A stretch of DNA of 38,058 bases from Candidatus Aminicenantota bacterium (GTDB lineage: Bacteria > Acidobacteriota > Aminicenantia > Aminicenantales > JAFGBC01), in assembly GCA_022867325.1 (NCBI GenBank), contig JALHUR010000013.1, forward strand, positions 1 to 38,058, given 5' to 3'. The notes beneath the pieces were generated by a model. That model saw nothing but the letters and a program-made list of their open reading frames with translations, had not been told where the DNA came from and did no database searches. This document shows positions 13,347 through 29,511 of the stretch, piece by piece. Made by a program: the position numbers and the translations under genes. Numbering within the stretch: position 1 is the stretch's first letter; each line of letters starts with the position of its first letter.

Positions 13347-13434
13347 GAAGACCTCCTCGTGATCGAAAAGTCGGGGTTCATGCGCAAGACCTCTTTCTAC
13401 ACCCGGGAAGGCGCCCTGTCAAGGCCGGAAAGTC

Positions 13435-13477
13435 GGGGTCAAACCTGCACTTTGTGACAAAGTGCAGGTTTGACCCC
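13435..13477. repeat. REP-like perfect palindrome (20-bp arms, 3-nt loop)
   Basis: GGGGTCAAACCTGCACTTTG-TGA-CAAAGTGCAGGTTTGACCCC; a variant recurs at 13891-14081. Confidence 0.8.
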
Positions 13478-13890: not shown

Positions 13891-14081
13891 GATCGGGGTC
13901 AAACCTACACTTTTGCCTTTAGTGCAAATTGACCCGTTCGCCGACGCTAAGCCCCGCCTTTAAAGGCGGGGACGAGAAGCGAGGCTCAGGGTTAACCCTG
14001 AGCAAGCCCCGGCATTCATGCCGGGGAGTCGATGGGTTGACTTTTTGCACTTTGTGACAAAGTGTAGGTTTGACCCCGATC
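13891..14081. repeat. REP-like element with perfect 23-bp outer inverted repeats, split by an insertion
   Basis: GATCGGGGTCAAACCTACACTTT (13891-13913) and AAAGTGTAGGTTTGACCCCGATC (14059-14081) are exact reverse complements. Confidence 0.8.
13934..14041 (+). mobile_element. 108-bp non-autonomous insertion with multi-stem RNA-like fold (HEARO/omega-RNA- or IS200/IS605-derived-like), copy 1
   Basis: CCGTTCGCCGACGCTAAGCCCCGCC...GGCGGGGACGAGAAGCGAGG CTCAGGGTTAACCCTGAG CAA GCCCCGGCATTCATGCCGGGG AGTCGATGGGTTGAC; flanked by TTGAC on the left and ending in TTGAC; homologous to 28699-28848. Confidence 0.7.
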
Positions 14082-14232
14082 GCTAGTGGGCGGCGATGCC
14101 GAGGGCGGCGATCGAGTTGCTGTCATGGACGCCGGCCGCGGGACTCCTCCCGTCTCCTCCTCCCGCATTTTGCCGCCGGTCGAATGAATTTCTCTTTTTT
14201 CAGGGCTTCTGCGGCACAGGGCTCCCGGGAAT

Positions 14233-27911: not shown

Positions 27912-28203
27912 CCCCAAGATGCTTTCCGGGCGTCGATTCACGCGATTTTCGTGGTGATTGACATCGCCGCGCGGCCGGCGATATATTACCGACATGGTTA
28001 GGAGGGGAGATTTAGTACGCGGAGCGAAAATCCGCCGCCCCGCGGAAAAAGCAAATTCTTAAACATCCCCATGACGTGAACTCATTTATTACCGGGAGCG
28101 ATAAATTGATTGCATGTTAGATTCTCAACAACCCAGAGTGGATCGGCATAATGCAGCAATCTATTTGATGCTTCCCTTAATAAGTCACTGCCGGGAGGTT
28201 TTC

Positions 28204-29511
28204 ATGAAAAAGATTTTTGTGATTTGTTGGTGTGTCATCAGTCTGTCAGCCATAGCAAGCGCTCAAACTCTGGTCACCAGGAGCGTTGTGAGCGATCAGA
28301 AGGGGAAAGACTATGCGCCAAATATCGTGCCGACGAGCGACGGCCAGTGGGCCGTCTTTTGGGCCCGGGACAAAGGTAGTGAAAACGTGATGATCCGAGG
28401 CCGAGGACTGCAGTCAGATGGGACGATCCTTACCGGCATTAGAAACCTGATCGGAGCGACACTCTATCGCCAGACGACTTTTGGAGGAGCGTCTCTCGGC
28501 AAGGGGCAGATCGTGGTGGGAGGGACACGTGAATCCGATCGCCAAATCGTGACGCGCGTCTATGACTCGAAATTGATAGCCAAGGCCAATCTTGTCGCTA
28601 CTGGGCAGACAGGGTTTAACACGACGTTTGCGCCATGCGCTTCGGGTGTGCTTTTGGCCTGGACAGACGCCATCGGCGCCCACATTGCTCCGCTCGACCC
28701 GTTCGCCGACGCTAAGCCCCGCCTTTCAAGGCGGGGACGAGAAGCGACACTTTTGTACTCAGCCCCTTGAGAGGAGATGGGGCTGAGTGGGCTCAGGGTT
28801 AACCCCGAACAAGCCCCGGCATTCATGCTGGGGGGTCGAGGGGTTGACTCGACGGGCCGATTCACCTCTTCCCCCCTTGAGCTGCCGACAGCCTCAAAGG
28901 CGCATTTTCTTCAACCAACCCGCATCGCCGCGACTCCCAATGGATACCTGGTCGTGGGCCTTGAGACGTACGCTGACTACAGTTTGAGACGTACGAGCGG
29001 CAATCTTGTAACCACCGATTTATCGAAGGCTAGCAAGGCCATCATCTACGAATCATCATTCAGCGAGCACGCCTTTGCAGCCGATGCCGCATGGGAGGGG
29101 AAGACCGGTTACACGCTGTTCGGACGGCGCGTCAACGACTCAAAAACCAGCGGTTATTTTCGAAAAATTAACGCCGCCGGAAAGCCGGCCGCGGCAGCGA
29201 AAAAGTTTCCGCCCAACAAAGCTCCTAACACCTGTAACTACCGAATCATCCCCCTCACGGGCACCGGCTGGTTTGCCACAACATGGTATGACTACAGCCA
29301 GGAGCTCATGTATCTGCAAATACTGTCCTCAAAGGGAACCTTCATGGGCAGCCCCGTCCCCATTTCGGAAAATGCCTATCGCATCCTGGACGACGTCGTC
29401 GACATGGCGTGGGACGCGGCATCGCAGAGGATCCTTGTCGCATACGCCGAGTACGCGGCAGCGCCGTCAACACCTGAGGACATTTGGGTCGCGATCTTCA
29501 GCCTGGAATAA
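28204..29511 (+). pseudogene. Secreted protein gene of unknown function interrupted by a 150-bp insertion
   Basis: MKKIFVICWCVISLSAIASAQ...IAPLD (28204-28698) and STGRFTSSPLELP...IFSLE (28849-29511) join in frame when 28699-28848 is removed, giving 385 aa; GGGAGG Shine-Dalgarno site before 28204. Confidence 0.75.
28699..28848 (+). mobile_element. 150-bp non-autonomous insertion with multi-stem RNA-like fold, copy 2
   Basis: Same 5' CCGTTCGCCGACGCTAAGCCCCGCCTTTnAAGGCGGGGACGAGAAGCGA and 3' GGCTCAGGGTTAACCC...AAGCCCCGGCATTCATGC...GTCGAnGGGTTGAC as copy 1, plus a 42-bp internal hairpin segment. Confidence 0.75.

Follow-up and report, generated by a model that had tools for sequence, protein, structure and literature searches.

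A PATE of the IS200/IS605 type nested in the apical loop of an interrupted REPIN in an Aminicenantes genome

The window, a stretch of 38,058 nucleotides from Candidatus Aminicenantota bacterium, contains a 108-bp unit at 13934–14041 that interrupts a large palindrome. The locus raises the question of what this unit is, and of how it came to lie in what would be the loop of a hairpin. The first-pass annotation had taken it for one of two copies of an element, inserted in the loop of a REP-like palindrome, and had seen in this position both single-stranded (Y1) transposition and target choice.

The borders of the unit were read directly: the left flank ends in ...AGTGCAAATTGAC, the unit runs from CCGTTCGCC to GGGTTGAC, and the right flank continues with TTTTTGCACTTTG. 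The target, which is also the left cleavage site, is TTGAC at 13929–13933 (+), as given by direct reading and by the logo from 116 complete copies described below. The right cleavage site, again TTGAC, forms the 3′ end of the element (14037–14041, +; direct reading and family comparison). Folding of the 108-bp element by itself predicted three hairpins, which correspond in the sequence to a left-end hairpin CCCCGCC-TTTAAA-GGCGGGG (13952–13971, +), a central palindrome GCTCAGGGTTAACCCTGAGC (13984–14003, +) and a right-end hairpin CCCCGGCATTCATGCCGGGG (14007–14026, +). Putative guides lie directly 5′ of the two end hairpins, TAAG on the left (13948–13951, +) and CAAG on the right (14003–14006, +), and 18 nt separate the left cleavage point from the left hairpin. 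Subterminal palindromes are thus found near both ends (CCCCGCC/GGCGGGG and CCCCGGCA/TGCCGGGG), terminal inverted repeats are absent, and the unit contains no transposase gene and is too short to encode one. These are the features of a PATE, a non-autonomous element of the IS200/IS605 type, on the plus strand. An Rfam search returned no match at the element.

An identical (100%) copy on contig C9 and a 99% identical copy on C257 point to recent movement of this lineage. The window carries a second copy, a 150-bp form at 28699–28848 (+), which shares both ends and the core with the 108-bp element and has an additional 42-nt hairpin (ACTCA...TGAGT). Direct reading bore out the first-pass annotation on the shared ends and core and on the TTGAC at the left flank and right end of the 108-bp element; the left flank of the 150-bp copy is TCGAC instead. 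The 150-bp copy breaks a reading frame (window 28114–29511), leaving ORFs 28114–28770 and 28777–29511 on either side.

The nature of the host palindrome was examined by removing the element and joining 13933 to 14042. The rejoined flanks read AGTGCAAA-TTGACTT-TTTGCACT within the inverted repeat 13891–13928/14044–14081, the predicted junction being AGTGCAAATTGACTTTTTGCACT, and this core sits inside a 23-bp inverted repeat. The left half (13891–13933, −) comprises a REP arm (GTGTAGGTTTGACCCC, 13895–13910, −), the 5′ half of the apical stem and the target TTGAC. The right half (14042–14081, +) comprises the 3′ half of the apical stem followed by a second REP arm (GTGTAGGTTTGACCCC, 14062–14077, +). 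Both arms, located in a census of REPs, were left intact by the insertion that split the doublet. Folded as single-stranded DNA, the rejoined 83-nt site was predicted to form a single hairpin (-31.9 kcal mol-1; z = -12.9), and none of 200 shuffles was equally stable. TTGACTT makes up its 7-nt apical loop, with TTGAC as the first five bases, so the earlier placing of the target in the hairpin loop of a larger inverted repeat holds.

The genome contains 56 occurrences of the 16-nt REP arm (GTGYAGGTTTGACCCY), the control none; most form inverted pairs, spaced 27, 35, 50–59 or 71–75 from start to start. An uninterrupted short palindrome of the same REP family lies in the window at 13433–13477 (no strand assigned), with its arms 27 nt apart from start to start. 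The spacing of the interrupted pair is 167, which becomes 59 once the 108-bp element is subtracted, and 59 is also the spacing of three intact doublets (C220:11792/11851, C475:44/103 and C475:4207/4266). The reconstructed REP type therefore does occur elsewhere in the genome, as intact doublets of equal architecture and spacing. On C140, REP arms at 1430 (−) and 2476 (+) flank a Y1 gene whose top NCBIfam hit is REP_Tyr_transpos, with 71.5 bits, under the model's cut-off of 80. The arm census, the repeated spacings and this Y1 gene between REPs identify the host palindrome as a REPIN as defined in PMC3116915: a spacer separates two inverted REPs, which fold into a hairpin, the spacing classes recur, and a RAYT-like gene is flanked by REPs. 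Inverted doublets, long hairpins, dispersal and the REP-flanked RAYT-like gene are shared with known REPINs and RAYTs (PMC3116915, PMC2817692, PMC6006769), whereas the REPIN here, with the arm GTGYAGGTTTGACCCC, is the host of an insertion and not the element. A second PATE (C257:1304–1411), an independent insertion, lies within another REP, and the rejoined sequence TACACTTT-TTGAC-AAAGTGTA has TTGAC as exactly its 5-nt loop.

The history of the locus was sought in relatives. In five of them (G003, G019, G029, G022 and G009) the locus is occupied by a conserved reading frame, which we take to resemble a YugP-like zinc peptidase. The window retains only about 50 nt of this frame beside the REP, a remnant at 14083–14138 (−) that matches G003 and G019 at 92% identity across 52 nt and whose translation reads ...VHDSNSIAALGIAAH. 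Reduction of the frame to this remnant accounts for the failure to find an orthologous empty site, the comparison proposed by the first-pass annotation; no empty site and no REP was found at the locus in these five genomes.

The element belongs to a large family. In the window's genome (G000; 3.73 Mb, 498 contigs, 92% complete), the left end gave 141 matches at up to 3 mismatches and 1 control match; a subfamily with the hairpin directly after GCTA gave 86 matches at up to 1 mismatch and no control match. With 56 arms against none in the control, and 141 left ends against 1, the observation at 13934–14041 is confirmed, neither the element nor the REP being a chance resemblance. The left end had no match in viral contigs. 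From the genome stretches, 152 distinct left ends running into the hairpin were recovered, 116 of them complete with both ends and flanks, and the copy number is put at about 150. Complete copies measure 51–271 nt, most frequently 108 and 150, and the length variants have common termini.

The flanks of the other copies are not unrelated, the outcome that would have told against the first-pass annotation; the target logo drawn from the 116 complete copies reads TTGAC (-5 T 96, -4 T 110, -3 G 93, -2 A 111, -1 C 116), with an invariant C at -1. G is avoided at +1 (4/116), and outside -5 to +1 the flanks of these copies are random, with no base preference. Exactly TTGAC precedes 97 of the 152 left ends; the other pentamers include TTTAC (10), CTGAC (7), TTAAC (6), TTCAC (6) and ATGAC (6). 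The right end is TTGAC in 110/119, and copies with a different left pentamer keep TTGAC at the right, indicating that this right-hand pentamer is part of the element. The family thus has a fixed 5′ target of 4–5 nt and no target duplication. All four 105-nt copies had other flanks (ATGAC, TCTGC, ACGAC and TCGAC).

PATEs were defined in Haloquadratum, where nesting with other mobile elements is frequent (PMC3119063). Like those of Haloquadratum walsbyi, the family described here lacks a transposase and terminal inverted repeats, has IS605-type subterminal palindromes, makes no target duplication, reaches a high copy number and is nested with mobile elements (PMC3119063). The comparison is one of features, and the present element differs in being bacterial (Aminicenantes), in its TTGAC target, in the covariation of its guides and in its presence in REPIN loops.

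The guides provide the connection with transposition. In IS608, guide base g1 pairs with target position -3, g2 with -4 and g4 with -1 (PMC5934647). Seven full-length IS200-type elements that bear TnpA, from this genome and its relatives, have the left guide–flank pairs CATG-TTGAC (two), AATG-TTTAC (two), AATC-TTTAG (two) and AATA-TTTAT (one); the pairs of two PATE families are TAAG-TTGAC and TAAA-TTGAT. The left ends of these nine follow the rule in 9/9 at g2/-4, 9/9 at g4/-1 and 7/9 at g1/-3, and the g4/-1 pairs include G-C, C-G and A-T states, i.e. compensatory changes. When the flank labels were shuffled 20000 times, the pairing score was matched once, in a test that ignores kinship among the elements. 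At the right ends, g4 followed the rule in 9/9 and g1 in 5/9. The TTGAT family, found in G018 and G024 (loci L097, L101 and L106), has this pentamer at both ends and guides that mostly end in A and not in G, and is a natural retargeting by one base.

Guide pairing was found in AAG-type copies, to which the window copy at 13934–14041 belongs, and in the sister families. It was not found at the left ends of the ACC type (83 copies; GCTA/CCCCGCC), which make up about half of the family, have no rule-conforming left guide and keep the TTGAC flank. Either these arose in place from guide-bearing copies through loss of the DNA between CCCCGCC repeats, a course made plausible by the 30–31 nt module copies, or they are served by another pairing.

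Within the same order, IS200 elements that carry TnpA share the design of the PATE, with a GC-rich CCCCG...CGGGG hairpin and a left tail of 18–19 nt, and two of them (in G024 and G083) use TTGAC. From cut to hairpin, the IS200 elements measure 18–19 nt and the PATE 18. This agreement and the covariation of guide and target tie the PATE to IS200/IS605 transposition; as read from the sequences, the covariation lends real support to a probable Y1, single-stranded mechanism. The PATE resembles IS608 and ISDra2 (PMC5934647) in its hairpin ends, each hairpin having a guide tetramer at its 5′ foot, in the pairing rule, in cleavage outside the left end and at the right-end terminus, and in insertion 3′ of the target. 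It differs from them in having neither tnpA nor tnpB, in its TTGAC target and in a partner transposase that is only presumed. No match to PF07282 (tnpB) was obtained in the genome (92% complete), and control genomes did match. A lagging-strand bias received no support, the GC skew of the element strand not differing from zero (n = 40, p = 0.29).

The favoured reading, to which a probability of roughly 0.86 is given, is that the 108-bp unit is a PATE that a Y1 (HUH) TnpA moved in trans, in single-stranded form, and inserted at the TTGAC of the REPIN apical loop. The PATE would represent an IS200/IS605-type element that lacks its gene and consists of the two ends only. Its guide would pair with TTGAC, TnpA would cut out the PATE strand as a circle, and the circle would be inserted 3′ of a single-stranded TTGAC. 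At this locus that TTGAC would have been exposed in a REPIN's apical loop, and the REPIN in turn is a non-autonomous repeat belonging to a second Y1 system. The most likely mover is the IS200-type TnpA on C497 (NF033573, E 1.2e-42), identical 3′ ends of which lie on C253 and C396. The C497 element differs from the PATE in its hairpin loop, in the spacing at the right end (8 nt, where the PATE has 15) and in its targets (TTTAT and TTTAC), so we only infer the role of its TnpA as partner.

Whether the hairpin itself contributed to the choice of site is a separate matter. It is on balance probable that any single-stranded TTGAC serves as target, that a REP loop was struck twice by chance and that the hairpin is irrelevant. 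The remainder of the roughly 150 copies occupy ordinary TTGAC sites that have no special hairpin, only 2 being in REP loops, and closing (bridging) stems around the targets were not significantly enriched over shuffles (p = 0.36–0.57). The idea that all copies target hairpins is therefore unsupported. REPs are moreover rich in TTGAC, which occurs in every arm, so about 2 REP insertions are expected by chance, a density-based estimate from some 4,000 genomic TTGACH sites. The unexpected part is that both lie in loops: 2 of the 4 TTGAC[ACT] sites in REP loops were occupied (the window and C257; the two free sites are both on C363), and none of the 53 in REP arms (Fisher p = 0.0038 for loop against arm, a post hoc test on two events). 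Beyond REPs, the unpaired fraction of TTGAC at complete insertion sites, with REP sites excluded, was slightly raised (0.600, against 0.563 in composition-matched shuffles; p = 0.009), and TTGACs at these sites were also slightly more unpaired than control TTGACs (p = 0.03).

A preference of the PATE for hairpin loops is, from a post hoc test with n = 2, only suggestive. Bases in a loop stay free when the arms snap into a hairpin, which would leave loop TTGACs available and arm TTGACs paired. The loop landings are read as a sign that unpaired bases of a single-stranded target are accessible, and not of a dedicated hairpin-targeting function. Of the earlier proposal, single-stranded Y1 transposition gains from guide–target covariation, and the hairpin loop as a general target does not stand, at 2 in about 150 copies. 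REPs are known targets of insertion sequences, some of them inserted at the axis of symmetry (PMC1525189). The REP-selecting IS1397, IS621, ISPsy8, ISRm22 and ISPpu9 belong to five other families (IS3, IS110, IS4, IS256 and IS5), so that insertion in a loop is compatible with single-stranded transposition and no proof of it. In contrast to these, the IS200/IS605-type PATE has only a pentamer as target and few of its copies in REPs. A limited literature search found no published report of IS200/IS605-type elements in REP loops.

Small hairpin modules of the ACTCA...TGAGT kind (consensus ACTCATRARCCKKWWMCGGYYYATGAGT) were found at about 95 places in the genome and at none in the control. They sit in the loops and arms of PATE hairpins (e.g. 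L072, L075, L181 and L337), and the PATEs that bear them are nested hairpin mosaics from 92 nt to more than 300 nt long. A lone module at C57:7202–7229 (L340/L366) splits a frame resembling an IS91-type transposase (LHPHLHFLVTEGGTDEA/GVFHN), and modules thus seem to move independently of PATEs. It is conceivable, though doubtful, that hairpin loops are a preferred landing of mobile hairpins in this genome, with PATEs entering REPIN loops, modules entering the loops and arms of PATE hairpins and repeats being built by successive single-stranded loop invasion; the modules would then be a new kind of mobile hairpin.

A RAYT (REP) transposase could have moved the PATE in place of an IS200-type TnpA, which would explain the presence of PATEs in REPs and at C140. 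There, between both REPs, the RAYT-like gene has a copy at its 3′ end (C140:2309; L033, L364), into which the reading frame of the gene continues. The Y1 inventory of the genome, three RAYT-like genes and one full IS200-type TnpA (C497), agrees with such a mover, as do the relatives G006 and G012, in which the PATE was found and an IS200-type TnpA was not. The ends of the PATE, however, are of IS200/IS605 design, with two hairpins, 5′ guides and cleavage pentamers at both ends; their geometry matches that of full IS200 elements, and no sequence is common to PATE ends and REPs. A RAYT mover is therefore considered improbable, and movement by an IS200-type TnpA is preferred.

Strong hairpins and many intergenic copies might also be expected of a structural repeat with a cellular role, such as a terminator or attenuator. 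The sharp insertion target, the length variants with common termini, and insertions both inside a reading frame (28699–28848) and inside another repeat make this very unlikely. That the palindrome is no REP and arose with the element, its flanks being copied or duplicated on insertion, has in its favour that the arms are mutual inverted copies around the element, and is scarcely credible and refuted by the REP census, since most of the 56 arms occur without the element, in same-spacing pairs and also around the RAYT-like gene, and most PATE copies have no such palindrome.

The type of element is already known, and the interest of the locus is in its nesting in REPIN loops and in the nested-hairpin modules. 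Two separate Y1 systems, IS200-type and RAYT/REP, are here nested one in another. A family of about 150 copies in several length classes, with two insertions in REP loops, makes a preference of single-stranded-DNA transposons for loop-exposed bases directly testable. Within one bacterial class, IS200-type elements and PATEs use several target pentamers, and the final bases of pentamer and guide co-vary, which confirms in natural elements the DNA-guided choice of target known from IS608.
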